Below, piece by piece: positions 21,101 through 64,000 of a stretch of DNA of 64,000 bases (position 1 is its first letter; each line of letters opens with the position of its first letter). A program made the position numbers and the translations under genes. The notes beneath the pieces were generated by a model. It ran no database searches and was not told the origin of the DNA. It saw only the letters and a list, made by a program, of their open reading frames with translations. The stretch comes from Schistocephalus solidus. Lineage: Eukaryota; Platyhelminthes; Cestoda; Diphyllobothriidea; Diphyllobothriidae. The stretch spans positions 27,125 through 91,124 of the forward strand of contig WEDG01001538.1 of the NCBI GenBank assembly GCA_017591395.1, read 5' to 3'.

Positions 21101-21943
21101 CGATACCGTACGCGCTATCGCTTCTCATACCGACTGTAAAACTGCGAATACCATGAAAAAACAATCTAAACTGCAGGACTCCGCCTGATAGGATGGCTTG
21201 CTATCCGGACAGACGAAAAAATGGGATAAATATAACAACTGGAGGACGCTGTGCGATAACGGCGCCAGCGCTTAGAGTTCCCTTTATCGATATTCCAACG
21301 TAAAAACAGGTTCGATGAGGACTAAAGCGAGATCCCACAACTGCTTTTAAGGTGGAACGAGGTTTCTCGGACTTAACTAGAGATCAGGACTTTCTCAAAC
21401 ACAGGAACACGCACCACTTACCGCCAATGACATCCGTGATTAGGAATTGCAAGGATACGTCACTACTGATAAAGTTGGGCGTTGCAGCAATCAAGGTAGT
21501 GCGTGGTCAGCAGACGACTTGAAAAGTACTAACGCTCGGCTTCAATGTAAAAATCTGCCACCGGGAATACAAGCCACATGGACTGAATCATTTTGATTAT
21601 TCACCGATGAATGGATAAACAACCGAGATGCTACCGTCCCTACTGGGTAAGGCCATTTAATCTTCCAGTGATAGATAAAATCGAGGCAGGATCAAATACG
21701 ACTTCTGGGAAGTACCGTAGCTCAGGATTGCAGGTAGAAGAGGTTCGCGCTACTCCCAGGGAAGATTTCGCGATGAACATTGCCGTGAGTCACTGTGCAC
21801 TCACTAACCCGCGGGCTATGATGTCTGAATTTCGCAATCGTTGCGGGACAAAACATACGAATTTGTCGATCTACAGTGATGAGAAAATGCGAACCAGACC
21901 CCATATTACACTTTCCATAGAGAAGAATAACCAACAAATATAA

Positions 21944-22190
21944 AGGAGACCGAGCTGACCATTTCTAGCTTACAAGCCGTCATCAGCCAGCCACAACCGA
22001 TCCAGGTTAATTCCTGATGCTCTATCACACGTTGTGTTGGTTAGAAGTCCAACGCTCTAAACTCTGAGACCGTGGCGCGTCATCCTGTTGGACTTTAACC
22101 TACGGGTTCAAGCATCAGGAATTACAAATTTGGGGTTGGGTATGACTGGCTGATGACGGCTAATAAACTAGAAATGGCCATTTGCAAATG
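21944..22190. mobile_element. Head-to-head pair of hammerhead retroposons
   Basis: A minus-strand copy (hammerhead region about 21946-21992, stem I partly lost) and a plus-strand copy (22144-22185, cores CTGATGA and GAAA intact but the 3' strand of stem I missing) face away from each other around their tRNA-like heads. Both contain the word AGCATCAGGAATTA. The mirror copy is at about 62935-63168. Confidence 0.6.
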
Positions 22191-22547
22191 TGGCGAGATA
22201 AATCTGGGACTTCGTAAGGGCTTACATTATAGGCAACGGAACCGCTTCTCTAGTTGGTTGCTGCGCGCGGAGTGAAACTGTTTGCGTGCTCGACCCAACC
22301 CTGTTTGAGCACGCGAGGTTAAAGGAACAAACGGCTGAAAATACCAACTCCCCGAAACCGCTAGCTAAAAACGCATTCCCGGTGTTCTTTTTGTTCATCT
22401 AAAGGAGCACGTGCGTGAGGTGATCGAAAGAGAGCAAAAGCATAATTCAAGTATAGATGCTTTTTAAATTACAAGAACAAAAAGCATTAAAAAGAGACGT
22501 ATGTACAAGCTTCGCTACATCCAACCAAATCCACCCAAGCTGTTGGC

Positions 22548-24826
22548 TCAGGAGAACCACTTTGGAAGGGCACCGGGGCCTTGGTAATGTTTTGGATGTT
22601 GCCTCTGCTGGTCCTTCGTTGGAGGCGGTTGAGATGTAGTCTCCAGTTCCTTAGCCTCTGCTTCAATATCTTCCTTGGCAGGCTGAAGTTCCTGTGTGGT
22701 ACCACTTAGCAGTCGATCTAGCTCCTCGGAAGGACTTTTGTCCTTGAAGATGTCAGGAAACTCAAAGTCGTGGCCGGGCGGCTAAAAGTTGTAAAGCAAA
22801 ATTCCCTTACGAAAATCCATTAGTTAAGAACTTTACGAAACAGGTTATCGAAAAACTCCACATCCAGTACAGTTCACATTTGGCAACCCTAAGACTTTGG
22901 GAGAGTAAAACAGGAACTTCGGGGTGAGAGAAAGACGAGCTGAAGCTAGAAGACACTTGACAATCAATAAGTGAAAAATACGGCCATCGATTCGATAAAG
23001 ATAGTTAACACTCGCTGCGACAGCTTCGAGAGGATGTCTGAGGCCATCCAAGAAGGAATATTGAAGTGGTTTGAGCATGTTGTTTGTCAACCGTCTGTGT
23101 CCAGTAATGGTTCACTAAATCCAACGTCATCGTCTTACTGTGGATGACAAGAAGAAGGGTAGTTCGAAAGCTGGAAGTTCTTGGATTTATGGTAGTCGGT
23201 CTTTGTCGGAAATAAAAGAGTACACCAATTCAATTGTACCTTCTGGTAACCCTCACGAGAGCTCGGTGATGTTAATTAGACCAGATACGATTGCAACCGT
23301 ATCCTGTAGATGTTAACAAGTCCAAAACGGACCAGACAGCACTTGAATGCGAACTAAATTCTGTTGGAATGATTAAGTTCGGAAAGTTCACGCCAAAAGT
23401 ATGTATTATGAAGATACGCCTGACTAAATTACAAACGGCGTAAAAAACCGCGGCTGTAATGAGAATCAAGTCCTATGAGATTCGTGTGTCGAATAAACAA
23501 AATTAAAAGGATAAATGATCACGCATTTTCTGTCAGACCCACAAATTCCTACGAAATAGCATCCAGACCTGGGGGTTAATTATTGCTTTTCTCATTTCTG
23601 TAAACTACTGCGAACTTACGTCCCAGGTTCGTATTACCTCATTTGGACACCTTTGTATTCATGGTTACAGCACCAACAGTCCTCGGGACAACCCCGGAAA
23701 CCGCCTAAATACTAGTTGATTTTCTACTAAGACAAACGCGAAACACGCATAGTGGTCAAACTGCCATTTACGTTGTTTTGTCCACCATCAAAATGCAACT
23801 TCTGGGTATGCATGATGCATTTGGCGTTTATATCGATTCCATGATAAAAATGTTCTGCCCACTAACCAAAACATATTGACGACAAATATTCAACCCGTAT
23901 CCTGCAGTCAACGTGCATTAGCACTAGGAAAGTTCTGTCGGACACCTCTGCCGATCAACAGTTACCATGTACTTACCCATTACCTAAATAACGAGCCAAA
24001 CCTGATAACGATGGTTATAACTTAGTACAACGGACTACAGGTCGGAGGACGCCAGTAGTTAAATGACGCTAAAATAATGTGCAGGATCGGTTAGGTTTTG
24101 AAGGTAGGGTCACTCATCTGGAATGTTTAAGTCAAAAAAATTCTGCAGCTAAATGTTTTGAGAATCCGTGGTTTTGTTTACTTTAACACACTTTTTTATC
24201 TGTAATTTTGGTGCAAGTAGACAGATAAAAGGAAGAATATATCAGGTACAGAACACTTCAAAGTTAGAATACTCACCAGGTGCACGTACGCTAGCTTCTC
24301 GTATCGTTCGGGTTCCAGCGGAAGCGAATGGGGCAAGGTGGCTCCAGCAGCTCTTTTGGGGTCCTCGGCAACGTCAAGGGGTGGCACTGAAATAAAGGAG
24401 AGGAATTATTATGAGCCACTCAAGAGAGACAAGGACCTACAATCGTGGTAGAGCATCTTAAGTCGGACGCTGGCGACGGGCACTTTATAAATCTTCTCCA
24501 AGTACTGCCTTACATCGAACTGAGTCATCCTAGAAGTGGTAGAGAGAGCATTAAGTAGAAAGAGCAAAACATACTGTGGATGGACCTTAAAGACGGCGAG
24601 GCACTTGGGGCAATCTTTACCTGGGTAAATCATTTTCATCCAAAAGGGGGGAAGGAACATCCGGAGTTGCGGATCACCGGGAGTGAATTTAGGGTAGACC
24701 ACATGTCGGTTCCAGAGAGGTCTTAAAGTGTGAAAGGCAGTTAGGCAAGGTGTTATTATAACCAACTTACACGTAATGCTTGGTCTTCGGTATAGCAATT
24801 GGATTGAAGTATATAACTGGACGCAT
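22548..24826 (-). CDS. MRPL23: Mitochondrial ribosomal protein L23 (uL23m), 5 exons, intact left-arm copy
   Basis: Exons on the minus strand: 24826-24771, 24721-24575, 24529-24441, 24386-24277, 22781-22548. GT/AG borders and phases are consistent, giving 211 codons plus stop. Introns are 49, 45, 54 nt and one of 1.5 kb. Diagnostic segments: RHVVYPKFTPGDPQLRMF, PPFWMKMIYPG, FKVHPQMTQFDVRQYLEKIY, KVPVASVRLKML, RYEKLAYVHL, PPGHDFEFPDIFKDK and the C-terminal GALPKWFS. These follow human MRPL23 in order (VVYP...[55 protein letters not shown]). uL23m belongs to the large mitoribosomal subunit near the peptide exit tunnel. The first 18 codons and the start ATG are less certain than the rest. A damaged mirror copy lies in the right arm. 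Confidence 0.9.
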
Positions 24827-24899
24827 TGTGGACGGTCTGTGAGAGACGACAGATTACATAGTAAAACGAACGAGTTAACTCTTGACAGGAAGTACAAAT

Positions 24900-27290
24900 A
24901 TTACGGATCAAACAGAAGGGTCTAGGTAATAGTCACCCATATTGGAGCACAACAAAAGCAAGTAATTTTAATATGAGTTGAGAAATATAACCTACAACTA
25001 AAAGGTTGGGAGAAAAATGGGCAATTAGGGAAATAGATTCAAAGAAAATGAAGAGCAACAACTAGTAATACGATCGATGAAGAAATTAATTTATTTGAAA
25101 ACCAAGAGGAAAGGAGTGTAACCAAAAGTTAAAAGGTCCTTTACGTTAATATGTACTTTAAAAGTAGTTGGTTAATGAGATTGAAACTGGTCGGCCTTCT
25201 AATTACGAAGGGTAATAGTTAATACCCTCTTGGAAACCGTGTGACGAAGTAGTTGTGAGTAGAACGCTGAGTTTGTTGGCCTTAAAAACCCTAGAACCAA
25301 TTCCGAAGTGGAGAATAAAGGGCGTAGAATAATGAGGTTTTGTGTCAAAAACCAGTGGGCGGCGTAGTGCATTTCATATGACAAAGGGGCTATGCTGTGA
25401 GTGACCCAGAGAAAGTTACTCTGTGCATAACATCGAAATTTTAAGGAGATATGCTGATTTTATATCTAATCTAATTTCACACAGAACGGAAAGAAAGGCA
25501 CATGTGGATTGGTACCCCTTATTCGGCAAACCATCTTCACCCACCACACATGCACATCTCTGGGGTCCTCATTACGCCTAACGTTTAAAATTCTTTCGTA
25601 GGGTAAAATGCATATTGACACGCTAGTGAACTATTTAACATGCCCACGAGTCCCTGCTAATAGGTAGCATTTGTGGAGTCCAAAGCTTCACTCCGCGTGG
25701 GCCCACAAAGCGTGAAAAGGCTGCGCGGTCTCAACGATGCTTGACGAGCATAATAGAATGCGGGGCTACCTAAACGTTTGCATCGACTGCGTGTGGTGAA
25801 TGCATCTGCAAGAGCACGCAGTCTTACCAAAGTTGGGGGTCACTGCCGATAAAGTAGAGGCGTACATTGTCGACAAAAAATTCGATGCATTTCCTGAGAC
25901 AGTTGCTTAAATTACTAGTGACACTAGCACAAAACGGGGTTGACTGGCATTACGCTGCGCAGCACCTGAGCTTCGATGTTGCCGAACAACGACTCTTAGG
26001 AGGGGTGGAGGGAGAACAGGGTGCGCCGGACCGATAGCAATGTCCCGTCCATTGCATTCCAAGACCATACAGGAGAGTGCACTGACAGCGATAAGGTACG
26101 CATGGTGAGAAAACTAAGGCTAAAAACGTACCCCCTCTGTATAAGGCACATAGTACCTGGAAATCCCGAAATTTCGCTATTAGGGGCAGCAGAACGTTAT
26201 CGACAAACCGACTCACACACGGCGAATACTCCGCAAAAACATTGCAAGGTTCAACGAAGAGTTTAAATTTTATCAGAACTGATGTAGTTGCTTACCGAAT
26301 ACGAGAGCAATGGTGTGCAAAACTCTTTTATCGGTCACCAGCACACAAACTTTTGCGAAAACTTAAACGGTCTGCCTGCACTTGGTCTCATTAAAAGTTT
26401 TAATGGGTTACAGTAAATCAAAAGATAACGCGATAAATTATTTTTGAGAAAATAGTCTCATTGATATGTTTATATTTTAAAAATAGAGTCTGCCTATATG
26501 TAAAACAAAAAACAGTCACGGGAATAATCATCAATTATAGGGAGTAGGGACTGTCGTGTGGACCAACCGCAACAACTACATATAACGAGACGGGAAACGT
26601 AAGTTCTCCGTGATTTTGTACATATATTTATCCTCAAAAATTAAGCAGACCTTTTGAAATTTTCACTGTGAATCATAGCGCTCTTTGCGCCTGCGACTTG
26701 TTTGAACTATTCACCATTTTCAACTCAATCACACATCCCTTATAACGTTTTTGGGAACAAGCAAATTAGGAATACATTAACGACTTCAAAGAGACATAGA
26801 AATACAAGGGCTCTTTGGTGTTTTATATTTTAAAGTCCTGTAGTACCTTTTCCAGTACGTTTTCCAGAACATTGAGCAGCAAGAAGACTGATTTCAATCG
26901 AGTCTTTGCACTGAAACATACAGTCTATGTATTGAATCAATTAATTGAATCCTCCGAAAGCTTTCCAAATCGAGCACCCTGCTGGAAATCTTGGCTTGGC
27001 CTACAAAGCCTCCCAGTCCAATGCAGTTTCTTATTGCTCGTCTGGGTTTCTGAGGAGTATCTACAAAAAAGGCTGATTCATTTATTATCCGTATTATTTT
27101 TAACTGATTGTGAAATTTATATCGAGTAACTCGTTATAAAAAATAATTTTAACATGTTCCACTAGCAGACGCAGTTAAGAACTATCCAAGGGCTTTCATT
27201 AATTTTCAAAAAGGCGGAGTAGATAATTTATATACTGCTAGTGTAAAACCACTTGTAGTGTAACTTACACCTAGCCCCTCGTTTATTCGT
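24900..27290. other. Unassigned stretch with one unidentified conserved-looking frame
   Basis: Mirrored at about 57810-60210. On the plus strand, 25866-26266 corresponds to a 132-codon frame in the right arm (listed there). In the left arm one extra G near 26031 breaks it into two frames. No other candidate gene was seen. Confidence 0.4.
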
Positions 27291-27349
27291 AAGCCACCAC
27301 ACAAGAATTCAAAAATGCATCCCGCAAGCCTGGATTGAGTCCGCGACCA

Positions 27350-30300
27350 TCATTGCTATGGCTGCACTCGCTATCCACTCGACCAACTCATCACAGAGGT
27401 GGCCGCTCTCTCAAATGAATATTCACGCTATTGACGGTACTGCCATATGTGGTGGCTATCAGAAACTGTCCATAAAGCTAAACCAGCTCAAGGATGAGAA
27501 AAAACAAATAAAATCTGCGTTGAATGTCTCCTCTACTCTAGTAGATGTCACATAGAAGTCCACTAAGTGACCAACTAGGAGTAAAACTATTGATACTCGA
27601 TCAAAGGACATCCCAACAACTTCAGTAGCTGCTACGTCCACCGAACACAAAAAAGCCCCCCAAAACACAAATCTGACACCAAGAAGTAAAAAGTTAATGT
27701 GCAACTGACTTCGAGAGACGCCTCAAAAAAACTTGAACAAGGGCCTTCGACCATTACCTCATTAACCACAGGAAATACTGCGATTCACACACTAAGCACA
27801 AGCAGTGGCATTGATTCCCCAACTGGAACGGCCACCTGCTATTAAAAATGGTTGAAACCGTGGAATTCACCGAAATGGGAAAAACCGGAACAAAGCCAAC
27901 ATATAGCCAAGCAGCATCCGCTCCATGATCACCAGTGCGCAGCGTTCAACCTTCCCACCAGATATTGGACGACAGCGTCTTAGGGACAAAAATGCCACCG
28001 ACAGAAAAAAGGCTTCATAATACAGGGAATACATGAACCAACAGCTACAACTCCCGTAGACCGACATTCCGACGACATGAACCATTTTCATGAAATTTTG
28101 AACAATATGCTGGAACCCAATACGTTGATTGAACTGGAAAAAGCCTTCCGCCTTGGAAAACGGCCCGAAAGCCAAGATGAATCAACACGTCTTAGGTATC
28201 TAAAAGTTATCTTGACCAGTAGCCAGGAGGTCAGGCTCATTCTGTCCAGGCACTTTAAGTTAAAAACTCAAACCCTGGAGTTTTGTTTCAACAGGACTTC
28301 TCATAGGCGGAACGGGACAACATCATCGACTTTTCACCGAACTGAGACAGCGGCTCAACGAAGGGACAAAATTTGGTTATTTACAACAACCAAGTGATTC
28401 ATTCTCCATTGATCTCCCCTGGAGAGGCCCGTTCCCGATGACCACGCAGTCGACCCAGTAAAGGGGGGCTCAGGCTCGACCGTAAGCACTTCCCGGACAA
28501 ACCGAAAACTAACATTCATGTATACCCATGCAGAGTGTATGTTACAGAAGCTCGAAGAGCTTAAGATTAATGTCTGTGAACTATCTCCTGATATAATTTT
28601 CCTAACATAAACCTGGTTGTCCCAAAACTTGGACGACCGGGAGGTCACTATGACTGGCTACCAACTGTTTAGAAAAGACAGGAAAGGGCGTCAAGGAGGA
28701 GGCGTACTCACATATGTGAAAAGTGAATTTACAGTCTTAGACAAAATGGCTAAACTGGCATCTACTTCTGAGGCGATATGGCTATCCATAAAAGTGTCAG
28801 GTTCATCAAGTCTAAATGTCCTGATAGTCTATCGTCCACCGAGAAGAGACCCCGTTGCCGATGCTTTTCTGCTAGATGAGCTTGAAAAGATTGCTACACG
28901 GTCGGATATCCTGATAATGGGTGTCTTTAATGTGACTCACATTGAATGTATCTCGGCCTGCGCACATAGCTCTGAGCACGACGCTAAAGCTACTTCTCAC
29001 AGAGCATGTAACTTTTCCAACAAGGGTGCGCGAAGGACAACAGGCCAATTGTCTGGACCTCGCTCTCACGAAGTTGCAGGACATCATCGACGAAGTGTAA
29101 TGTCTACCACCGTTAGGTAAAAGTGACCACGTTGTACTGCGATGGGAGTACTCGCTATTTTATATACGAGAAAGACCCACAACAGTCAGAAAGAATATGT
29201 AGCAAGGCGATTTCGGTGGAATGAGGGCCGAACTCATGCGCACTCAGTGGGAACCTTTATTCTTTGGAAACATAACCGAGGACTGGGGAACGTTCCGGGA
29301 CGTACTGCATAGGCTCATCAAAAATCACTGTCCAATTTTGATGGCGATGGCTTTCACAGGCCTTAAAAATCGAAGTTAACAAAAAGCGGAGATTTTGGAG
29401 AAAGTCGCTTACGGACGGAACTCCTGCATCTCTGAATGCGAAAAAATGCAGATAAATCGGGTCAAGGGCCTTATTGCTAGAACAAGACATGATTTGAAAG
29501 TGGACCTGCTGAACCAGGCCACCGTGAACCCGAAACTGTTTTACGGTTACCTCAGGCAGAATAGACTGAACAAGGATCATATACCCTCGCTGAGGACCGC
29601 CGAGGGCATAGACCTTACTGAAGACGGTGCAAAGGCTGATTATCGTTCGGAATTTTTCCTGTCAGTTTTCACAAAGGAAACGAGATACGATATCCCTACC
29701 GATGTCTTCAAAGTGGATACAATAGTCGAGACTATTTAATTCACCAAGACTATTGTTCTCAAGGAATTTTTGGGGTTAGAGGAATCTAAGTCACCGGGTC
29801 CCGATGAAGTACCTGCCAGGATCTTGAAAGAGCTCACGAGAGAGTTGGCCAAACCTCTCTCTACGCTTTTTCAAACATCCTTCGAGACCGGAGGTCTACC
29901 AGCCTAGTGGAAATCCACATGGATTACGCCGCTCTTAAGGGAAGAAGCTGGGTCTCCGCAAAAAATTATCGACTGGTCAGCCTTACTTCAATTTGCAGAA
30001 AAGTCATGGAAAAAAATAATTAAGCAACAACTAATGCAGTTCCTAGAACATAACCATCTGCTCTCCGAGGTCCAGCAAGGTTTCCGTAGAGTAAGATCCT
30101 GTGTCAAAAATTTTCTCTACTGTTTAGAACGTTGGACTGAGACGGTCGATAGAGGAAATACGCTGCACGCAATCTATATTAACTTCAAAAAAGGCTTTCG
30201 ACAGCGTGCCGCACCACCGCCTTCTTTATACACTCAACAGCATAAGAGTAAGAGGTAGACTTCTGACATGGATAGAAAACTTCCTAATTGACCGCTCAAA

Positions 30301-30480
30301 AACTGTCCATATCGCCGAGGAACTGTCGGTCAAGGTTGAGGTTGAGAGTAAAATTGACTCCAGAAATGGTCAAATGACTGGCTCTTGCCATTCAATGAGA
30401 GCAAGTGCAACATCACACGAGCCGGGAAAAGCAATCCTTCAAATCGTACGGTTTACCGAACAGATTAGCGGCTGTGATTA
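27350..30480 (+). pseudogene. CR1-like LINE, decayed, left-arm copy
   Basis: In order on the plus strand: an ORF1-like coiled segment (LNQLKDEKKQIKSALN, 27358-27555); a gag-like stretch with AFRLGKRPESQ and LRYLKVILTSSQE (28077-28260); an AP endonuclease with LSQNLDDREVTMTGYQLF, GGGVLTYVK and DILIMGVFN (28617-28925), where the last motif has Val instead of the usual catalytic-site Asp; then spacer sequence RLNKDHIPSLRTAEG; then RT fingers with ESKSPGPDEVPARILKEL and FDSVPHHRLLYTL. Several stops and frameshifts occur and the YxDD palm is missing, so the element is dead and 3'-truncated at about 30480. The mirror copy is at 54596-57740. Confidence 0.8.
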
Positions 30481-30965
30481 GGCTGTGGGCGCAAGTCAGT
30501 GAGCCGGGCACGCAGGCCTTCGTATTGAGAGTCCAGAGTACAGATGCTAATCTTTTCTGGACCATGTTGAATCTCACTGTCTAGCCACCACCTCCCCTGA
30601 CATGGCGAAAAACAGTTGAAACTATTAACACATCCAACATCAGTGCAATTACCTCTGTCCCCATCCCGCATCGATGACTATTAAGTTTACCTTCTGCAGT
30701 CGCATTTAGTTGCCACCCCCCTTCGCCTTCGACACAGGGAGCCCTAGCAGCCCCCCCTATAACCGGCACCAATCCAATTATTATCTGCTCATTCCTCACA
30801 CCCCAGTTGGTTGTCTGTCCTGTAGCACAAACTGGTCATCTGACCATTTCATTTCTCCTCTGTTTATTTCGTCTGATGACGGGTTGGTGTGACCAACTTG
30901 AAAATTCACGAGCAAAACTCGATTTTTTCCGACGAACATTCTTTCGTCATCTATATATATATAGG
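30481..30965 (+). repeat. Element A with hammerhead-like motif, left arm
   Basis: A non-coding repeat ending in TTATTTCGT, CTGATGA, a strong stem (GTTGGT-GTG-ACCAAC), GAAA, a CGAG/CTCG hairpin, TTTTTTCC and GACGAA, then (TA)n. The start (CAGTGAGCCGGGCACGCAGG) resembles element B near 42487. It is distinct from the tRNA-headed hammerhead family. The mirror is at 54126-54590. Confidence 0.5.
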
Positions 30966-30999
30966 CAACCGTGATATCCACGGGTACATGATAATGATG

Positions 31000-31495
31000 A
31001 GGGTGTTGTCTATGTATTGGTGTAGGTAGTGTGCGCTGATGTGGCTCAGCCTCTGGTGGTTAACCGCAGGTTGTCATGGGTGCGCATGTGACCGAATGCG
31101 CCCATGCGATGAGTGAACGCGCGAGGACAGTGAGGGCAGTGGAGACGGCGATCTCTTCTGAATGTTGGTGCTATAGGCACTGGTTCACCAGTCTCTGGAC
31201 GATGGATTCACAAGTGACCGACCAGGCTGATGCGTGAGGTGAATGTGCACTCACAATGAGGACAGTTTAGGAGAGAGTCTCCATCGCTGATGGTGGTGGT
31301 GGCGGCGGTGGTGGTGGGCGTAACAGGTGATGAGTAATGGGATGTGGTCTCTCTGATGGTGGGAGTAATGGAATTGATGCCAGGAGTGAGGGTGAGGGAA
31401 TCTGAAGGAGGGTTGGCAGTGCATTGCGTCCGCAGGTATCCGACGCGGCCGATTCGCTCGCGGAAGTTGCGTTGGCAAGGTGGGCATGTTAATAC
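31000..31495 (-). pseudogene. Zinc-finger LINE 3' fragment, left arm
   Basis: Minus-strand reading gives CPPCQRNFRERIG, then the TP-rich linker, CPHCECTFTSRIG-type and [13 protein letters not shown] fingers and an HDNLR ending, interrupted by an in-frame stop in the second finger (GHL-stop-IH). Only the zinc-finger end of the LINE is present. The mirror at 53557-54055 is cleaner. Confidence 0.75.
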
Positions 31496-31689
31496 CTAAG
31501 AAATATTTTTATTTTAAGCCCCCACAGGGCTCTGTTAAAACAAACTTAGCGCTGAGATAAAATAAATACAGCGTGGACGATGGTGGTCAGATATACAGTT
31601 CGTTCCCTATCAGAAGCAGATGCGCGAAATTGGCACAAAAACGCAAATAACGCAAAATTGCGCACCATGCATCCACGCTAGGTATACTA

Positions 31690-31840
31690 CTTTAAAGAAA
31701 CGAAGTCTTTGTCAGCCTAGTTTCCGACCATCCGTAACTATGTGGGCGTAGAATAACCGTTTGGAGAGGCACACGTCATCCATATTTACCACGTGGCTGC
31801 TCCATTAGAGCGTTAATAGAACACCGTGGAAGCCGGTTTT
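31690..31840 (-). pseudogene. Old diverged LINE post-RT fragment, left arm
   Basis: The mirror, in plus orientation at 53210-53350, reads VNMDDLCLSKRLFY and HIVTDARKLGWQRLRF. This is a diverged version of [20 protein letters not shown]...GGQKRRY of the zinc-finger LINE. It suggests an older subfamily member beside the younger 3' fragment. Confidence 0.5.
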
Positions 31841-32282
31841 TACAGCTCACTAGTATGCTAGGAAAGCCCACTGGGTCGAGGTTCAAGAACAATCAGCTTA
31901 TTTTATAAAGGAAGGTGGGGCTTACTGCAGTTTGCTCGACAATGTTTCGTGAAAGGAGTAATGGTTTTGGGACAAGGTTTAGGGCTTTAGGTTTGTGAGG
32001 TTCGTTTTTAGGATCAGGTACCTTGTTATTAGAGTTCGGATTTGGCTTTTCAGGTTTAGACATAGAGTTTTCTATTTGCGGCTGCGCGTTCACTTAGGGA
32101 TTTAAGTTCGGATTTGTGAGAAGGGTCTTGTGTTAGAGTTCCGAGTAGATGTTTAGTTTAGATTTTTCGACCCGCTACTAGAAGAGCGCTCGGATACCTT
32201 GGGAGACCTCACCAAGGATCGACTGGCCTTGCGAAAATGTATGAACAACTGAACAACGATCTAAGTAACCAAGTGCCGCGGC

Positions 32283-44152: not shown

Positions 44153-44189
44153 GTGAATAACTAAAGTGGTTTGCATGCCGAGATGGTGT

Positions 44190-50959: not shown

Positions 50960-51520
50960 TAGTCGCTTAGCGTACGAGTTTCCCCTACCGGAGGCGCTCG
51001 CTCCCTAAAGACCCAAAGTATGAATCGTTTCCCCAATGTGCGTTGCAAGCTGAGAGCTTAGGTTCAGCTTTCGAGTTGTCCATTTGTGCTCTTATAGGTA
51101 AGTCTGCAATTTCCGCGCAGTATACCCAAATCAGTTGCAACCTCCATCCTTGCTAGTTATTTTGTGCACAACTGGGGAAGTTTCTATGTGACCGCGTGCT
51201 CTTTTGGTCGCATAAAACAGCAACAGATTGGTCCTGAGCTCAATGAGCTGCGCCTGCCATAGTGGATTTTAACAATCGAGGAACCGCCCTCCACACTGCA
51301 GGTTGTTTTTCACTTGAACGTCGTCTATTCATTCCATTTGCTCTGAATAGGTACTGAATATGTAGTTGTTCAATCCTTTTGTCTGCTTACGAACCGCAAT
51401 TCCTTTCAAGTATTTGGCAAAGAGTGCGGTTGCCGCTAAGTTTGTGAGTGGGATTACTTTTGAGGAGAATCCTTTTCCTTGTATCGGTAGTTTGGAGTTG
51501 TCCAGTTCTACTTAGTCAGT
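50960..51520 (-). pseudogene. Unidentified coding-like relic, right arm
   Basis: Mirror of 37670-38235; the same broken frame with additional substitutions. Family not recognised. Confidence 0.3.
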
Positions 51521-53209
51521 ACGCACATTAACTACCAAATCAATGGCGCCCATAACAAATACTTATCAATAACCATGCAGATGTGACCAAACATGCACTG
51601 TGGGTGAAATATTAGAGTACATTTAAGTTTGTTCACTTAAATTTGCGCAGTTAAATTTTCACACATTTTCTGCATTAGGCTGCACGTAATGACTATTTTA
51701 ATGGGTGTCACTTAACTTTAAACGTCTTACTGGCCATATGTACTTGCTTCCAGCGTTTACTACTTACCCACATGTTTTGGAGAACCTTATAATCATATAA
51801 TTATTCTGACTTGACGACAATTTAGCGAAGCCAAACTTCTGCTCACCAAAACTATCTTTCAACTCGTAAAGATTTCCTGCACCCCGACGCCAGAGATGGT
51901 GGCGCTGGTTTTCCCTTGTTTCCTTCTCTCAGTAAGTTTAAGGTTTTTAGCATCTTTTATTTTACGGTAGTGCCAGGGGTTAAGATGAAGGATACCGTTT
52001 AGTTTTGTGTTAGGGAAAGTACTAGCGTTAAGACACGGGTTTATTTACCCTTACGGACGTTTACTGTAAGGTCACATACTTTAAGCGGGTGGGACGGTTC
52101 CTTATAGATAACAGGAGCTTTCTGATTGCTCCTTGTCTAGCAGCAACGCATCAGCGAATATAACATTCTTCCACCCTTTTTTAAGAGGTGCTTGTTTACT
52201 ACTGTTTTCCTATATAACTTAATAGATAGCTAATGAGCCGCCTGCTAATCGAACGCAATTATTTTAGCAGGTTCAAATATAAATGCGAATGGTGAAGCCT
52301 TTGGTTCGCTTCTCAAAATGGTCATCAACCGCAGACTAATGTATTCAATAAATCGTAAATAGTTGACGTGAGCTCTAAGAAATAAGTCGTCAGTTGACTT
52401 GAATTCTTTTTTTAGAACTTTAGGACTGCCTCAGAAGCAGTTTGGTACAGTCTTCTAGAAACACAAAATGTCACTTAAGCATAGTTCTTTTTCGAATTCA
52501 ATCACCATGTCAGAAAGCGATAGGGGGCTGAAAACAGGACGCAAAACTAGCCATCTTCAGCTATGTTATACAATCAATCGAAGAACATGGAATCGCTTAG
52601 AACAAGAAAAAAACCATAAAAGTATACTTTTTTACTGTTTTGCAGGCTTTGACAGGCAGAAATCTTTCAGTATATGAATTTGACGGAAAACATGAGCGTT
52701 TATTAAGAAATTAACAATGATAAAATTTGTCGATCGCTGAACAGAGGAATCGAGCACACCATGCCGCGGCACTTGGTTACTTAGATCGTTGTTCAGTTGT
52801 TCATACATTTTCGCGAGGCCAGTCGATCCTTGGTGAGGTCTCCCAAGGTATCCGAGCGCCCTTCTAGTAGCGGGTCGAAAAATCTAAACTAAACATCTAC
52901 TCGGAACTCTAACACAAGACCCTTCTCACAAATCCAAACTTCAATCCCTAAGTGAACGCGCAGCCGCAAATAGAAAACTCTATGTCTAAACCTGAAAAGC
53001 CAAATCCAAACTCTAATAACAAGGTACCTGATCCTAAAAACGTACCACACAAACCTAAAGCCTTAAACTTTGTCCCAAAACCAGTACTCCTTTCACGAAA
53101 CATTGTCGAGCAAACTGCAGTAAACCCCACCTTCCTTTATAAAATAAGCTGATTGTTCTTGAACCTCGACCCAGTGGGCTTATCTAGCATACTAGTAAGC
53201 TGTAAAAAC

Positions 53210-53350
53210 CGGCTTCCACGGAGTTCTATTAACGCTCTAATGGAGCAGCCACGTGGTAAATATGGATGACTTGTGCCTCTCCAAACGGTTATTCTACGCC
53301 CACATAGTTACGGATGCTCGGAAACTAGGCTGGCAAAGGCTTCGTTTCTT
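53210..53350 (+). pseudogene. Old diverged LINE post-RT fragment, right arm
   Basis: Reads VNMDDLCLSKRLFY and HIVTDARKLGWQRLRF, a diverged form of the post-RT region of the zinc-finger LINE. Mirror of about 31690-31840. Confidence 0.55.
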
Positions 53351-53556
53351 TAAAGTAGTATACCTAGCGTGGATGCATGGTGCGCAATTTTTGCGTTATT
53401 TGCGTTTTTGTGCGAATTTCGCGCATCTGCGTCTGATAGGGAACGAGCTGTATATCTGACCACCATCGTCCACGCTGTATTTATTTTATCTCTGTACTAA
53501 GTTTGTTTCAACAGCGCCCTGTGGAGGCTTAAAATAAAAATATTTCTTAGGTATTA

Positions 53557-54055
53557 ACATGCCCACCTTGCCAACGCAACTTCCGCGAGCGAATCGGCCG
53601 CGTCGGATACCTGCGGACGCAATGCACTGCCAACCCTCCTTCGGATTCCCTCACCCTCACTCCTGGCATCAATTCCATTACTCCCACCATCAGAGAGACC
53701 ACATCCCATTACTCATCACCTGTTACGCCCACAACCACCGCCGCCACCACCACCATCAGCGATGGAGACTCTCTCCAAAACTGTCCTCATTGTGACTGCA
53801 CATTCACCTCACGCATCGGCCTGGTCGGTCACTTGTGAATCCATCGTCCAGAGACGGGTGAACCAGTGCCTATAGCACCAACATACAGAAGAGATCGCCG
53901 TCTCAACTGCCCTCACTGTCCTCGCGCGTTCACTCATCGCATGGGCGTATTCGGTCACATGCGCATCCACGACAACCTGCGGTAAAACACCAGAGGCTGA
54001 GCCACATCAGCGCACACTACCTACACCAATACATATACAACAACCTCATCATTAT
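53557..54055 (+). pseudogene. Zinc-finger LINE 3' fragment, right arm
   Basis: Reads CPPCQRNFRERIGRVGYLRT, the TP-rich linker with an extra-base frame problem, [18 protein letters not shown] then stop, IHRPETGEPVP and [18 protein letters not shown], ending HDNLR and a stop. After the stop, CACATCAGCGCACACTACC is shared with the sequence just beyond the 17.8-kb copy, marking the LINE 3' end before (TA)n. Confidence 0.78.
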
Positions 54056-54056
54056 C

Positions 54057-54118
<62 letters not shown>

Positions 54119-54134
54119 ATATATATATATATAG
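54057..54134. repeat. (TA)n microsatellite, expanded in the right arm
   Basis: About 75 bases of nearly pure TA with two CATA interruptions. The mirror position in the left arm (about 30950-30962) has only about 13 bases of TA. Confidence 0.9.
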
Positions 54135-54590
54135 ATGACGAAAGAAGGTTCGTCGGAAAAAATCGAGTTTTACTCATGAATTTTCAAGTTGGTCACACCA
54201 ACCCGTCATCAGACGAAATAAACAGAGGAGAAATGAAATGGTCAGATGACCAGTTTGTGCTACAGGACAGACAACCAACTGGGGTGTGAGGAATGAGCAG
54301 ATAATAATTGGATTGGGGCCGGTTATAGGGGGCTGTTAGGGCTCCCTGTGTCAAAGGCGAAGGGGAATGGCAACTAAATGCGACTGCAGAAGGTAAACTT
54401 AATGGTCGTCGATGCGGGATGGGGACAGAGGTAATTGCACTAATGTTGGAGGTGTTAATAGTTTCAACTGTTTTTTGCCATGTCAGGGGAGGTGGTGGCT
54501 AGACAGTGAGATTCAACATGGTCCAGAAAAGATCAGCAGCTGTACTCTGGACTCTCAATACGAAGGCCTGCGTGCCCGGCTCACTGACTT
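54126..54590 (-). repeat. Element A with hammerhead-like motif, right arm
   Basis: Mirror of 30481-30965. On the minus strand CTGATGA, GTTGGT-GTG-ACCAAC, GAAA and a TGAG/CTCG hairpin. The left copy has CGAG/CTCG, so the C-G to U-G change keeps the pairing. Confidence 0.5.
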
Positions 54591-54595
54591 GTTCG

Positions 54596-57500
54596 GTAAA
54601 CCGTACGATTTGAAGGATTGCTTTTCCCGGCTCGTGTGATGTTGCACTTGCTCTCATTGAATGGCAAGAGCCAGTCATTTGACCATTTCTGGAGTCAATT
54701 TTACTCTCAACCTCAACCTTTACCGACAGTTCCTCGGCGATATGGACAGTTTTTGAGCGGCCAATTAGGAAGTTTTCTATCCATGTCAGAAGTCTACCTC
54801 TTACTCTTATGCTGTTGAGTGTATAAAGAAGGCGGTGGTGCGGCACGCTGTCGAAAGCCTTTTTTGAAGTTAATATAGATTGCGTGCACCGTATTTCCTC
54901 TATCGACCGTCTCAGTCCAACGTTCTAAACAGTAGATAAAATTTTTACACAGGATCTTACTCTACGGAAACCGTGCTGGACCTCGGAGAGCAGATGGTTA
55001 TGTGCTAGGAACTGCATTAGTTGTTGCTTAATTATTTTTTTCCATGACTTTTCTGCAAATTGAAGTAAGGCTGACCAGTCGATAATTTTTTGCGGAGACC
55101 CAGCTTCTTCCCTTAAGAGCGGCGTAGTCCATGTGGATTTCCACTAGGCTGGTAGACCTCCGGTCTCGAAGGATGTTTGAAAAAGCGTAGAGAGAGGTTT
55201 GGCAAACTCTCTCGTGAGCTCTTTCAAGATCCTGGCAGGTACTTCATCGGGACCTGGTGACTTAGATTCCTTTAACCCTAAAAATTCCTTGAGAACAATA
55301 GTCTTGGTGAATTAAATAGTCTCGACTATTGTATCCACTTTGAAGACATCGGTAGGGATATCGTATCTCGTTTCCTTTGTGAAAACTGACAGGAAAAATT
55401 CCGAACGATAATCAGCCTTTGCACCGTCTTCAGTAAGGTCTATGCCCTCGGCGGTCCTCAGCGAGGGTATATGATCCTTGTTCAGTCTATTCTGCCTGAG
55501 GTAACCGTAAAACAGTTTCGGGTTCACGGTGGCCTGGTTCAGCAGGTCCACTTTCAAATCATGTCTTGTTCTAGTAATAAGGCCCTTGACCCGATTTCTC
55601 TGCATTTTTTCGCATTCAGAGATGCAGGAGTTCCGTCCGTAAGCGACTTTCTCCAAAATCTCCGCTTTTTGTTAACTTCGGTTTTAAAGGCCTGTGTAAG
55701 CCATCGCCATCAAAATCGGACAGTGATTTTTGATGAGCCTATGCAGTACGTCCCGGAACGTTCCCCAGTCCTCGGTTATGTTTCCAAAGAATAAAGGTTC
55801 CCACTGAGTGCGCATGAGTTCGGCCCTCATTCCACCGAAATCGCCTTGCTACATATTCTTTCTGACTGTTGTGGGTCTTTCTCGTATATAAAATAGCGAG
55901 TACTCCCATCGCAGTACAACGTGGTCACTTTTACCTAACGGTGGTAGACATTACACTTCGTCGATGATGTCCTGCAACTTCAAGAGAGCGAGGTCCAGAC
56001 AATTGGCCTGTTGTCCTTCGCGCACCCTTGTTGGAAAAGTTACATGCTCTGTGAGAAGTAGCTTTAGCGTCGTGCTCAGAGCTATGTGCGCAGGCCGAGA
56101 TACATTCAATGTGAGTCACATTAAAGACACCCATTATCAGGATATCCGACCGTGTAGCAATCTTTTCAAGCTCATCTAGCAGAAAAGCATCGGCAACGGG
56201 GTCTCTTCTCGGTGGACGATAGACTATCAGGACATCTAGACTTGATGAACCTGACACTTTTATGGATAGCCATATCGCCTCAGAAGTAGATGCCAGTTTA
56301 TCCATTTTGTCTAAGACTGTAAATTCACTTTTCACATATGTGAGTACGCCTCCTCCTTGACGCCCTTTCCTGTCTTTTCTAAACAGTTGGTAGCCAGTCA
56401 TAGTGACCTCCCGGTCGTCCAAGTTTTGGGACAACCAGGTTTATGTTAGGAAAATTATATCAGGAGATAGTTCACAGACATTAATCTTAAGATCTTCGAG
56501 CTTCTCTAACATACACTCTGCATGGGTATACATGAATGTTAGTTTTCGGTTTGTCCGTGAAGTGCTTACGGTCGAGCCTGAGCCCCCCTTTACTGGGTCG
56601 ACTGTGTGGTCATCCGGAACGGACCTCTCCAGGGGGAGATCAATGGAGAATGAATCACTTGGTTGTTGTAAATAACCAAATTTTGTCCCCTTCGTTGAGC
56701 CGCTGTCTCAGTTCGGTGAAAAGTCGATGATGTTGTCCCGTTCCGCCTATGAGAAGTCCTGTTGAAACAAAACTCCAGGGTTTGAGTTTTTAACTTAAAG
56801 TGCCTGGACAGAATGAGCCTGGCCTCCTGGCTACTGGTCAAGATAACTTTAGATACCTAAGACGTGTTGATTCATTTTGGCTTTCGGGCCGTTTTCCAAG
56901 GCGGAAGGCTTTTTCCAGTTCAATCGACGTATTGGGCTCCAGCATATTGTTCAAAATTTTATGAAAGTGGTTCATGTCTTCGGAATGTCGGTCTACGGGA
57001 GTTGAAGCTGTTGGTTCATGTATTCCCTGTATTATGAAGCCTTTTTTCTGTCGGTGGCATTTTTGTCCCTAAGACGCTGTCGTCCAATATCTGGTGGGAA
57101 GGTTGGACGCTGCGCACTGGTGATCATGGAGCGGATGCTGCTTGGCTATATGTGGGCTTGTTCCGGTTTTTTTTCCATTTCGGTGAATTCAACGGCTTCG
57201 ACCATTTTTAATAGCAGGTGGCCGTTCCAGTTGGGGAATCAATGCCACTGCTTGTGCTTAGTGTGTGAATCGCAGTATTTCCTGTGGTTGATGATGTAAT
57301 GGTCGAAGGCCCTTGTTCAAGTTTTTTTGAGGCGTCTCTCGAAGTCAGTTGCACATTAACTTTTTACTTCTTGGTGCCAGATTTGTGTTTTGGGGGGATT
57401 TTTTGTTTTAGGCAGACTGTTTTTTTCCTGCGCCATTGCTACTTGTTGTTAGGTGGACGTAGCAGCTACTGAAGTTGTTGGGATGTCCTTTGATCGAGTA

Positions 57501-57740
57501 TCAATAATTTTACTCCTAGTTGGTCACTCAGTGGACTTCTATGTGACATCTACTAGAGTAGAGGAGACATTTAACGCAGATTTTATTTGTTTTTTCTCAT
57601 CCTTGAGCTGGTTTAGCTTTATGGACAGTTTCTGATAGCCACCACATATGGCAGTGCCGTTAATAGCGTGAATATTCATTTGAGAGAGCGGCCACCTCTG
57701 TGATGAGTTGGTCGAGTGGATAGCGAGTGCAGCCATAGCA
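54596..57740 (-). pseudogene. CR1-like LINE, decayed, right-arm copy
   Basis: Mirror of 27350-30480 with the same domain order (ORF1-like coil at 57736-57539, endonuclease at 56434-55931, linker at 55656-55312, RT fingers near 54846-55290) and the same stops. It has about 43 extra bases near 57405-57450 compared with the left copy. No YxDD palm. Confidence 0.8.
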
Positions 57741-58846
57741 ATGATGGTCGCGGGCTCAACTCAGGCATGCAGGATGCATTTTTGAATTCTTGTGTGGTGG
57801 CTTACGAATAAACGAGGGGCTAGGTGTAAGTTACACTACAAGTGGTTTTACACTAGCAGTATATAAATTATCTACTCCGCCTTTTTGAAAATTAATGAAA
57901 GCCCTTGGATAGTTCTTAACTGCGTCTGCTAGTGGAACATGTTAAAATTATTTTTTATAACGAGTTACTCAATATAAATTTCACAATCAGTTAAAAAGAA
58001 TACGGATAATAAATGAATCAGCCTTTTTTGTAGATACTCCTCAGAAACCCAGACGAGCAATAAGAAACTGCATTGGACTGGGAGGCTTTGTAGGCCAATC
58101 CAAGATTTCCAGCAGGGTGCTCGATTTGGAAAACTGTCGGAGGATGCAATTAATTGATTCAATACTTTGACTCAATTAATGTCTATGGACTGTATGTTTC
58201 AGTGCAAAGACTCGATTGAAATCAGTCTTCTTGCTGCTCAATGTTCTGGAAAACGTACTGAAAAAGGTACTACAGGACTTTAAAATATAAAACACCAAAG
58301 AGCACTTGTATTTCTATGTCTCTTTGAAGTCGTTAATGTATTTCTAATTTGCTTGTTCCCAAAAACGTTATAAGGGATGTGTGATTGAGTGAAAATGGTG
58401 AATAGTTCAAACCAGTCGCAGGCGCAAAGAGTGCTATGATGCACAGTGAAAATTTCAAAAGGTCTGCTTAATTTTTTGAGGATAAATATATGTACAAAAT
58501 CACGGAGAACTTACGTTTCCCGCCTCGTTATATGTAGTTGTTGCGGTTGGTCCACACGACCGTCCCTACTTCCTATAATTGCTGATTATTCCCGTGACTG
58601 TTTTTTGTTTTACATGTAGGCAGACTCTATTTTTAAAATATAAACATATCAATGAGACTATTTTCTCAAAAATAATTTATCGCGTTATCTTTTGATTTAC
58701 TGTAACCCATTAAAACTTTTAATGAGACCAAGTGCAGGCAGACTGTTTAAGTTTTCGCAAGAGTTTGTGTGCGGGTGACCGATAAAAGAGTTTTGCACAC
58801 CATTGCTCTCGTATTCGGTAAGCAACTACATCAGTTCTGATAAAAT

Positions 58847-59245
58847 TTAAACTCTTCGTTGAACCTTGCAATGTTTTTGCGGAGTATTCGCCGTGTGTGA
58901 GTCGGTTTGTCGATAACGTTGTGCTGCCCCTAATAGCGAAATTTCGGGATTGCCAGGTACTATGTGCCTTATACAGAGGGGGTACGTTTTTAGCCTTAGT
59001 TTTCTCACCATGCGTACCTTATCGCTGTCAGTGCACTCTCCTGTATGGTCTTGGAATGCAATGGACGGGACATTGCTATCGGTCGGCGCACCCTGTTCTC
59101 CCTCCACCCCTCCTAAGAGTCGTTGTTCGGCAACATCGAAGCTCAGGTGCTGCGCAGCGTAATGCCAGTCAACCCCGTTTTGTGCTAGTGTCACTAGTAA
59201 TTTAAGCAACTGTCTCAGGAAATGCATCGAATTTTTTGTCGACAA
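58847..59245 (-). CDS. Unidentified 132-codon open frame
   Basis: Begins MSTKNSMHFLRQLLKLL and runs through QHLSFDVAEQRLLGGVEGEQ, DSNVPSIAFQDHTGECTDSD and GNPEISLLGAAQRY. I do not recognise it. The left-arm counterpart (25866-26266, plus strand) is broken by one extra G near 26031, so only one arm keeps the frame open. It could be a real exon, a mobile-element remnant or chance. Confidence 0.25.
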   Translation of the reverse strand: MSTKNSMHFLRQLLKLLVTLAQNGVDWHYAAQHLSFDVAEQRLLGGVEGEQGAPTDSNVPSIAFQDHTGECTDSDKVRMVRKLRLKTYPLCIRHIVPGNPEISLLGAAQRYRQTDSHTANTPQKHCKVQRRV

Positions 59246-60286
59246 TGTACGCCTCTACTTTATCGGCAGTGACCCCCAACTTTGGTAAGACTGCGTGCTC
59301 TTGCAGATGAATTCACCACACGCAGTCGATGCAAACGTTTAGGTAGCCCCGCATTCTATTATGCTCGTCAAGCATCGTTGAGACCGCGCAGCCTTTTCAC
59401 GCTTTGTGGGCCCACGCGGAGTGAAGCTTTGGACTCCACAAATGCTACCTAGTAGCAGGGACTCGTGGGCATGTTAAATAGTTCACTAGCGTGTCAATAT
59501 GCATTTTACCCTACGAAAGAATTTTGAACGTTAGGCGTAATGAGGACCCCAGAGACGTGCATGTGTGGTGGGTGAAGATGGTTTGCCGAATAAGGGGTAC
59601 CAATCCACATGTGCCTTTCTTTCCGTTCTGTATGAAATTAGATTAGATATAAAATCAGCATATATCCTTAAAATTTCGATGTTATGCACAGAGTAACTTT
59701 CTCTGGGTCACTCACAGCATAGCCCTTTTGTCATATGAAATGCACTATGCCGCCCACTGGTTTTTGACACAAAACCTCATTATTCTACGCCCTTTATTCT
59801 CCACTTCCGAATTGGTTCTAGTGTTTTTTAAGGCCAACGAACTCAGCGTTCTACTCACGACTACTTCGTCACACGGTTTCCAAGAGGGTATTAACTATTA
59901 CCCTTCGTAATTAGAGAGGCCGACCAGTTTCAATCTCATTAACCAACTACTTTTTAAAGTACATATTAACGTAAAGGACCTTTTAACTTTTTGGTTACCT
60001 CCTTTCCTCTTGGTTTCAAATAAATTAATTTCTTCATCGATCGTATTACTAGTTGTTGCTCTTCATTTTCTTTGAATCTATTTCCCTAATTGCCCATTTT
60101 CTCCCAACCTTTTAGTTGTAGGTTATATTTCTCAACTCATATTAAAATTACTTGCTTTTGTTGTGCTCCAATATGGGTGACTATTACCTAGACCCTTCTG
60201 TTTGATCCGTAATATTTGTACTTCCTGTCAAGAGTTAACTCGTTCGTTTTACTATGTAATCTGTCGTCTCTCACAGACCGTCCACA

Positions 60287-62571
60287 ATGCGTCCAGTTAT
60301 ATACTTCAATCCAATTGCTATACCGAAGACCAAGCATTACGTGTAAGTTGGTTGTAATAACACCTTGCCTAACTGCCTTTCACACTTTAAGACCTCTCTG
60401 GAACCGACATGTGGTCTACCCTAAATTCACTCCCGGTGATCCGCAACTCCGGATGTTCCTTCCCCCCTTTTGGATGAAAATGATTTACCCAGGTAAAGAT
60501 TGCCCCAAGTGCCTCGCCGTCTTTAAGGTCCATCCACAGTATGTTTTGCTCTTTCTACCTAATGCTCTCTCTACCACTTCTAGGATGACTCAGTTCGATG
60601 TAAAGCAGTACTTGGAGAAGATTTATTAAGTGCCTGTCGCCAACGTCCGACTTAAGATGCTCTACCACGATTGTAGGTCCTTGTCTCTCTTGAGTGGCTC
60701 ATAATAATTCCTCTCCTTTATTTCAGTGCCACCCCTTGACGTTGCCGAGGACCCCAAAAGAGCTGCTGGAGCCACCTTGCCCCATTCGCTTCCGCTGGAA
60801 CCCGAACGATATGAGAAGCTAGCGTACGTGCACCTGGTGAGTATTCTAACTTTGAAGTGTTCTGTACCTGATATATTCTTCCTTTTATCTGTCTACTTGC
60901 ACCAAAATTACAGATAAAAAAGTGTGTTAAAGTAAACAAACCCACGGATTCTCAAAACATTTAGCTGCAGAATTTTTTTGACTTGAACACTCCAGATGAG
61001 TGACCCTACCTTCAAAACCTAACCGATCCTGCACATTATTTTAGCGTCATTTAACTACTGGCGTCCTCCGACCTGTAGTCCGTTGTACTAAGTTATAACC
61101 ATCGTTATCAGGTTTGGCTCGTTATTTAGGTAATGGGTAAGTACATGGTAACTGTTGATCTGCAGAGGTGTCCGACAGAACTTTCCTAGTGCTAATGCAC
61201 GTTGACTACAGGATACGGGTTGAATATTTGTCGTCAATATGTTTTGGTTAGTGGGCAGAACATTTTATCATGGAATCGATATAAACGCCGAATGCATCAT
61301 GCATACCCAGAAGTTGCATTTTGATGGTGGACAAAACAACGTAAATGGCAGTTTGACCACTATGCGTGTTTCGCGTTTGTCTTAGTAGAAAATCAACTAG
61401 TATTTAGGCGGTTTCCGGGTTGTCCCGAGGACTGTTGGTGCTGTAACCATGAATACAAAGGTGTCCAAATGAGGTAATACGAACCTGGGACGTAAGTTCG
61501 CAGTAGTTTACAGAAATGAGAAAAGCAATAATTAACCCCCCCCAGGTCTGGATGCTATTTCGTAGGAATTTGTGGGTCTGACAGAAAATGCGTGATCATT
61601 TATCCTTTTTAATTTTTGTTTATTCGACACACGAATCTCATAGGACTTGATTCTCATTACAGCCGCGGTTTTTTACGCCGTTTGTAATTTAGTCAGGCGT
61701 ATCTTCATAATACATACTTTTGGCGTGAACTTTCCGAACTTAATCATTCCAACAGAATTTAGTTCGCATTCAAGTGCTGTCTGGTCCGTTTTGGACTTGT
61801 TAACATCCACATGATACGGTTGCAATCGTATCTGGTCTAATTAACATCACCGAACTCTCGTGAGGGTTACCAGAAGGTACAATTGAATTGGTGTACTCTT
61901 TTATTTCCGACAAAGACCGACTACCATAAATCGAAGAACTTCCAGCTTTCGAACTACCCTTCTTCTTGTCATCCACAGTAAGACGATGATGTTGGATTTA
62001 GTGAACCATTACTGGACACAGACGGTTGACAAACAACATGCTCAAACCACTTCAATATTCCTTCTTGGATGGCCTCAGGCATCCTATCGAAGCTGTCGCA
62101 GCGAGTGTTAACTATCTTTATCGAATCGAGGGCCGTATTTTTCACTTATTGATTGTCAAGTGTCTTCTAGCTTCAGCTCGTCTTTCTCTCACCCCGAAGT
62201 TCCTGTTTTACTCTCCCAAAAGTCTTAGGGTTGCCAAATGTGAACTGTACTGGATGTGGAGTTTTTCGATAACCTGTTTCGTAAAGTTCTTAACTAATGG
62301 ATTTTCGTAAGGGCATTTTTGCTTTTACAACTTTTTAGCCGCCCGGCCACGACTTTGAGTTTCCTGACATCTTCAAGGACAAAAGTCCTTCCGAGGAGCT
62401 AGATCGACTGCTAGAGTGGTACCACACAGGAACTTCAGCCTGCCAAGGAAGATATTGAAGCAGAGGCTAAGGAACTGGAGACTACATCTCAACCGCCTCC
62501 AACGAAGGACCAGCAGAGGCAACATCAAAACATTACCAAGGCCCCGGTGCCCTTCAAAGTGGTTCTCCTGA
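60287..62571 (+). pseudogene. MRPL23: MRPL23 duplicate, disrupted right-arm copy
   Basis: Mirror of 22548-24826; start ATG at 60287 and all splice dinucleotides are kept. Lesions: TAA at 60627-60629 in exon 3 (left TAT AAA, right TAT TAA), truncating after QYLEKIY; one inserted G near 62414 in the last exon; single-base losses near 62526 and 62554. A protein from this copy would lack the C-terminal half. The stop is a substitution, so it does not depend on homopolymer accuracy; the three indels might. Confidence 0.85.
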
Positions 62572-62934
62572 GCCAACAGCTGGGTGGATTTGGTTGGATG
62601 TAGCGAAGCTTTGTACATACGTCTCTTTTAATGCTTTTTGTTCTTGTAATTTAAAAGCATCTATGCATGAATTATGCTTTTTGCTCTCTTTCGATCACCT
62701 CACGCACGTGCTCCTTTTAGATGAACAAAAGAACACCGGGGAATGCGTTTTTAGCTAGCGGTTTCGGGGAGTTGGTATTTTCAGCCGTTTGTTCCTTTAA
62801 CCTCGCGTGCTCAAACAGGGTTGGGTCGAGCACGCAAACAGTTTCGCTCCGCGCGCAGCAGCCAACTAGAGAAGCGGTTCCTTTGCCTATAATGTAAGCC
62901 ATTACGAAGTCCCAGAACTATCTCGCCACATTTG

Positions 62935-63170
62935 CAAATGGCCATTTCTAGTTTATTAGCCGTCATCAGCCAGTCATACCCAACCCCAAATTTGTAATTC
63001 TTGATGCTTGAACCCCGTATGTTAAAGTCCAACAGGATGACGCACGGTCTCAGAGTTTAGAGCGTTGGACTTCTAACCAACACAACGTGTAGTGACATCC
63101 AGGAATTAACCTGGATCGGTTGTGGCTGGCTGATGACGGCTTATGAGCTAGAAATGGTCAGCTCGGTCTC
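62935..63170. mobile_element. Head-to-head pair of hammerhead retroposons, right arm
   Basis: Mirror of 21944-22190; both cores (CTGATGA, GAAA) are present but stem I is damaged in both units. Confidence 0.6.
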
Positions 63171-64000
63171 CTTTATATTTGTTGGTTATTCTTCTCTATG
63201 GAAAGTGTAATGTATGGGGTCTGGTTCGCATTTTTCTCATCACTGTAGATCGACAAATTCGTATGTTTTTGTCCCGCAACGATTGCGAAATTCAGACATC
63301 ATAGCCCGCGGGTTGAGTGAGTGCACAGTGACTCACGGCAATGTTCATCGCGAAATCTTCCTGGGAGTAGCGCGAACCTCTTCACCTGCAATCCTGAGCT
63401 ACGGTACTTCCTAGAAGTCGTATTTGATCCTGCCTCGATTTTATCTATCGCAGAAAGATTAAATGAGCCTCACCCAGTAGGGACGGTAGCATCTCCGGTT
63501 GTTTATCCATTCATCGGTGAATAATCAAAATGATTCAGTCCATGTGGCTTCATTCCCGGTGGCAGATTTTTACATTGAAGCCGAGCGTTAGTACTTTTCA
63601 AGTCGTCTGCTGACCACGCACTACCTTGATTGCTGCAACGCCCAACTTTATCAGTAGTGACGTATCCTTGCAATTCCTAATCACGGATGTCATTGGCGGT
63701 AAGTGGTGCGTGTTCCTGTGTTGAAAGTCGTGATCTCTAGTTAAGTCAGAAACCTCGTTCCACCTTAAAAGCAGTTGTGGGATCTGCTTTAGTCCTCATC
63801 GAACCTGTTTTACGTTGGAATATCGATAAAAGGAACTCTACGCGCTGGCGCCGTTATCCTACAGCGTCCTCCAGTTGTTATATTTATCCCATTTTTCGTC
63901 TGTCCGGATAGCAAAGCCATCCTATCAGTCCTGCAGTTTAGATTGTTTTCATGGTATTCGCAGTTTTGCAGTCGGTATGAGAAGCGATAGCGCGTACGGT

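Follow-up and report, generated by a model that had tools for sequence, protein, structure and literature searches.

A contig-end inverted repeat in the tapeworm Schistocephalus solidus with two slightly different arms and a joint inside transposons

Fold-back inverted duplications have been sequenced in humans, where the single-copy spacers at the 21 junctions described by Hermetz et al. range from 766 to 70,466 bases (median 3,428), and where junctions with short inverted homology share 2-8 bases (Hermetz et al., 2014, PMC3907307). Fold-back reads, for their part, are reported to account for ~0.55-0.6% of the genomic reads from Nanopore sequencing and to be able to cause tangles in assembly graphs (PMC12870357). 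The S. solidus assembly ASM1759139v1 (625.2 Mb, 15,357 scaffolds, one worm) was, as its published description states, built with Flye 2.4, nanopolish and Pilon from 4,636,932 Nanopore reads amounting to 14.5 Gb, or ~20x (PMC8400842), and division of these totals gives a mean read length of 3.1 kb. Our literature search on tapeworm palindromes found nothing on nuclear genomes among the papers listed, and that on worm heterozygosity found no per-base figure applicable here.

The stretch analysed here (64,000 bases, hereafter the window) comprises bases 27125-91124 of the 91,124-base contig C1281, so that the contig ends at window position 64000. It holds a long inverted repeat whose arms look like two distinct and real, slightly different copies of one tapeworm tract. 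On balance we lean toward reading them as two copies (alleles or paralogues) of the same locus that were mis-joined at transposons; this weighting, like those of the two other readings discussed below, is a judgement and not a computed value.

Geometry and divergence of the arms

Self-BLAST of the window recovers seven inverted blocks with identities of 96.4-98.3%, in which the left arm is mirrored by the right arm and the coordinate sums step from 85046-85105 to 89538. This stepped geometry, together with an asymmetric spacer and three segments found only on the left, had been described from the letters alone in the original prediction, and all three features stand.

Left arm: 21105..44130, plus strand; unique DNA with transposon remains; the contig stops at the mirror of its outer end
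Right arm: 45413..64000, minus strand; mirror copy, its final base being the last base of C1281
Spacer: 44131..45412, no strand; 1,282 bases
Inverted block 1: 21105-27650 and 57443-64000 (self-BLAST, as for all blocks)
Inverted block 2: 27647-30462 and 54590-57406
Inverted block 3: 30492-30963 and 54122-54591
Inverted block 4: 30985-32301 and 52744-54061
Inverted block 5: 36151-36794 and 52103-52745
Inverted block 6: 37134-40424 and 48778-52056
Inverted block 7: 40758-44130 and 45413-48780
Left-only segment: 32302..36150, plus strand; 3,849 bases, also in contig C112, with 1-2 bases common to its ends
Left-only segment: 36795..37133, plus strand; 339 bases, also in C112; the right arm has ~46 unrelated bases here (52057-52102)
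Left-only segment: 40425..40757, plus strand; 333 bases, also in C112, with ACC common to both ends

The match between the arms is too long to be due to chance. In MAFFT alignments of the blocks, 318 substitutions (175 transitions and 143 transversions) are found in 18,386 aligned bases, or 1.73%, and 87 indels across the same columns, the indels increasing toward the end of the contig. Divergence is uneven, being 1.0% in 40758-44130 vs 1.9% elsewhere (Fisher p = 2e-4). Eight substitutions fall within nine bases at 42651-42659 and add much of the inner-arm count; this cluster, which sits inside an imperfect inverted repeat element (42407-42761 in the arm), could be a single template-switch event. 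A (TA)37 run occupies 54060-54133 in the right arm, and the corresponding run of the left arm is much shorter.

The left-only segments were considered as transposon insertions into the left arm, an explanation that we rejected: no target-site duplications were found at the ends of the three segments, and all three are present in C112. Judging from their end sequences, the absences of 32302-36150 and 40425-40757 look like deletions in the right arm.

With 1.73% substitutions and three large segments between them, the arms differ beyond sequencing error and are too different to be one molecule read twice, and the 1,282-base spacer that separates them holds unrelated elements. A same-molecule fold-back read is thus insufficient, as had been argued beforehand. 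The rule behind that argument, that an artefact would leave no spacer and no arm differences, holds for fold-back reads and fails for a misjoin of two real copies.

Transposons at the joint and a third version of the tract

The inner ends of the arms and most of the spacer consist of transposon sequence, and a further multi-copy element lies within block 2.

LINE 3'-part fragment, left arm: 43092..44130, plus strand; in a (TA)n run, the site being empty in C112
LINE, right arm: 45132..46448, minus strand; the same insertion, with 281 additional bases 3'
Penelope-like element, 5' part: 44417..45131, plus strand; other copies in the genome are 85-89% identical, the C112 copy 98%
Joint: 45131..45132, no strand; Penelope-like element cut mid-frame and fused to the interior of the LINE, with ~1 base of overlap
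Multi-copy element, left arm: 27650..30462, plus strand; copies at 79-86% on many contigs

The two LINE pieces occupy the same site and differ in 3 of 1,034 columns; in 877 four-way columns they have 20 private changes in common that are absent from two other copies. They therefore derive from a single LINE insertion event. The spacer opens with a (TA)n run and the C112-collinear bases 44135-44416; after the Penelope-like fragment, its last 281 bases are LINE sequence and form part of the right-arm copy. The family of 44417-45131 is called Penelope-like because a full copy on contig C5657 matches a reverse transcriptase (Pfam RVT_1, E 5e-9) and because the continuation of the element in C112 has a weak GIY-YIG match (22.2 bits, just below the Pfam cut-off of 22.6); the name is our reading of these two domains and is accordingly provisional. 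Elsewhere in the arms, one of ten open reading frames matched Pfam, a weak reverse-transcriptase match at 30128-30478 within the multi-copy element, and scans of the sequence for tRNAs and Rfam families gave none.

The joint has a high-copy repeat on each side, and LINE copies elsewhere, e.g., on C2109, extend past the joint point. The overlap of ~1 base was read base by base against that single LINE copy on C2109. Among 19 fetched loci, the exact fusion of Penelope-like element and LINE was seen only in the window's own copy. C112 continues through the Penelope-like frame at the very base at which C1281 reverses.

On C112 (177,707 bases), left-arm positions 32174 to 43091 recur in uninverted order, the three left-only segments included, followed by the spacer from 44135 to 45131 at 97.6-97.7%, save for 57 extra bases. 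C112 lacks the 1,039-base LINE piece, in place of which it has an empty (TA)n site. Near its own contig start (C112:1-10960) the identity drops to 72-85% and the alignment opens hundreds of gaps, a pattern that resembles unpolished read noise and limits any comparison of the arms with C112. Unpolished contig ends thus exist in this assembly, the start of C112 being an example.

At 88 sites where the arms differ by substitution, C112 has the left state at 42, the right state at 39 and neither at 7, and because its agreements are split in this way it is, as judged from these sites, a third version distinct from both arms. The order of the agreements is as in shuffled data in two of three stretches. 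The third stretch is mildly clustered (2.6% of shuffles have as few runs), mostly owing to the tight cluster at 42651-42659.

A giant transposon with terminal inverted repeats was also considered and rejected, since long arm matches in the genome searched (603.7 Mb, 8,019 contigs) are confined to C1281, where they occur twice, and C112; 40 of 14,674 and 40 of 3,074 candidates were scored.

The contig end and other palindromes in the assembly

Because C1281 ends at 64000, no boundary is established for the outer end of either arm. The original prediction had proposed looking for the arm ends in the flanking contig; the right arm runs to the last base of C1281 with no outer boundary on the way. 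When 19700-26700 was used as a query, its inner part matched only the left and right arms, and the hits to 19700-21105 were short diverged repeats and included no long second copy (in both cases among 40 scored of 3,074 candidates). Given the contig end and the lack of a long second copy of 19700-21105, the right arm is without an outer flank.

Outside the left arm, a C2H2 zinc-finger/LINE reading frame (17777-19213, minus strand) has many copies at 96-97%. Among the matches listed for its protein, the lowest E-values are to Spirometra and Sparganum proteins, and the top identity is to S. solidus (92% over 68% of the query); S. solidus accounts for 9 of the 120 matches listed, at 62-92% identity, and several matches bear a reverse-transcriptase domain. 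The frame belongs to LINE-type repeats of diphyllobothriid tapeworms, and a zinc-finger gene cluster was rejected as the cause of the repeat. A longer zinc-finger LINE copy occupies 17146-19213 and is ~94-95% like the arm copies and that of C2109. To the left of the window, dense short-period direct repeats lie at about 500-6000 and about 11000-11700 of C1281.

A second palindrome lies at the end of contig C6470. This contig starts inside the palindrome, in which bases 1-14963 mirror 15264-30222 at 97.4% (~15-kb arms, 300-base spacer) and each arm holds three tandem Penelope-like units. In the outer 2 kb its arms differ by 20 indels and 0 substitutions. Most of the 184 substitutions counted along the full arm fall further in, within the Penelope-like array, and homopolymers hold 109 of the 137 one-base indels counted over the same length. 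This palindrome looks artificial, as would be expected of a single-sequence fold-back with polishing noise. Separately, C6970:33930-38998 holds a 2.4-kb inverted pair (98.5%, 242 bases apart) that is internal to its contig and is probably two natural Penelope-like copies in opposite directions.

C6470 raises the question of whether C1281 could also be a same-locus fold-back, i.e., one molecule's template and complement, or the same graph path traversed twice, in which consensus and polishing introduced the arm differences by picking alleles site by site from two haplotypes. The resemblance of C6470 to such a product speaks for this origin, as does the minimal divergence beside the joint; moreover, the interleaving of C112 states without long blocks in two of three stretches is what random allele picking predicts. 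However, the interleaving is equally expected under a misjoin and under a real duplication, and the third stretch is mildly clustered. This origin would further require a heterozygosity near 3.4% (2x 1.73%), and the right arm would have to lack three segments and carry 281 extra LINE bases. We consider it highly improbable.

Misjoined copies or a real inverted duplication

The reading that we prefer, with confidence only a little above even, is that two real copies of the locus were mis-joined. Two alleles or two paralogous loci would carry copies of the 19-23 kb tract with a common LINE insertion, and the draft Nanopore/Flye assembly would have connected the left and right copy head to head, a chimeric read or a repeat-mediated path having linked one to the other. 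Such a link could arise because both families are high-copy and their pieces are shorter than the mean read. We infer that the joint is then present on no chromosome. In agreement with this reading, the right arm runs to the contig end without a unique outer flank, and the joint falls in repeats found elsewhere in the genome. That C112 reads through at 45131 fits as well but is not decisive, as C112 is possibly the other allele. Furthermore, this assembly does make end-of-contig palindromes, since C6470 is one. The low coverage and short mean read length of ASM1759139v1, and the share of fold-back reads reported for Nanopore data, point the same way.

Several observations go against a misjoin. 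The deletions and substitutions between the arms look like real variation, unlike those of C6470, and the LINE insertion is common to both arms and missing from C112. A plain join of two alleles is also countered by C112, which is a third version where a diploid worm has at most two alleles; under such a join, C112 must therefore be a paralogue or the arms must be polishing mosaics.

These last points are accounted for if fold-back repair on one haplotype produced a real inverted duplication and C112 is the unduplicated allele, a reading that we regard as a serious contender, though less likely than not. Here, a break in the Penelope-like element (45131) would have been joined to the upstream LINE on the opposite strand and the tract copied back outward, a route that leaves a single-copy spacer. 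The arms would later have diverged by 1.7% substitutions, the right arm losing three segments and the left arm the 3' part of its LINE, while the centre was partly homogenised. This would explain why one diploid worm has exactly three versions (left, right and C112), and why both arms but not C112 carry the LINE. The arm differences exceed those of a same-molecule artefact, the lower central divergence could reflect arm-to-arm gene conversion, and, apart from the LINE piece and the 57-base difference, C112 and the spacer are collinear, the spacer length lying within the human range (766-70,466 bases, as given in PMC3907307). Against this stand the missing outer boundary of the right arm, with a contig that stops inside the arm; a joint overlap of only ~1 base as judged against the C2109 copy, vs 2-8 in the human short-inverted-homology junctions of that report (PMC3907307); and C6470, by which the same assembly is seen to yield artificial-looking palindromes. 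Spelled out in full, the duplication would be heterozygous and germline, at least 19-23 kb long, formed by fold-back repair at the Penelope-like element beside the LINE and retained to 1.7% divergence, with gene conversion keeping the centre alike (LINE 0.3%); this version we offer tentatively, as rather unlikely.

The original prediction had favoured a real, somewhat aged inverted duplication and had kept a haplotype-joining misassembly as an alternative. The arm differences on which it relied are borne out, and a real duplication is not established by them: one arm stops at the contig end with no unique anchor, the joint lies inside two high-copy transposons, C112 has the uninverted order, and the same assembly contains the artificial-looking palindrome of C6470. 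The former alternative, as a misjoin of real copies, thereby becomes our preferred reading. The adjacency of the copies in opposite directions is unproven, and is slightly likelier to be an assembly joint than a true inverted duplication.

Either outcome has consequences. If the joint is one of assembly, this genome and similar low-coverage Nanopore drafts of short read length contain contigs ending in false palindromes, which would inflate estimates of repeats, duplication and genome size. If the duplication is real, it would provide a sequence-level tapeworm example of an old fold-back inverted duplication that is still polymorphic and accompanied by an intact, unduplicated allele, useful for learning how long inverted repeats survive and convert.

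Compared with known systems, the locus resembles the fold-back inverted duplications of Hermetz et al. (2014, PMC3907307) in a spacer of reported size that is collinear with an unrearranged copy (C112) up to the joint, and differs from those described there in having no visible outer breakpoint or terminal deletion and a joint overlap of ~1 base. With the fold-back (inverted chimeric) long-read artefact it has in common mirror arms, one of which ends at the contig end, and a second palindromic contig in the genome; unlike that artefact, its arms have 1.73% substitutions and three large segments between them and are separated by a 1,282-base spacer with unrelated elements. Finally, it is like a misjoin of haplotigs or paralogues via high-copy repeats in that the joint lies in a Penelope-like element and a LINE and the arm differences are those expected of alleles or young paralogues, and it departs from a simple case of this kind in having a third version, C112, for which two alleles alone are insufficient.
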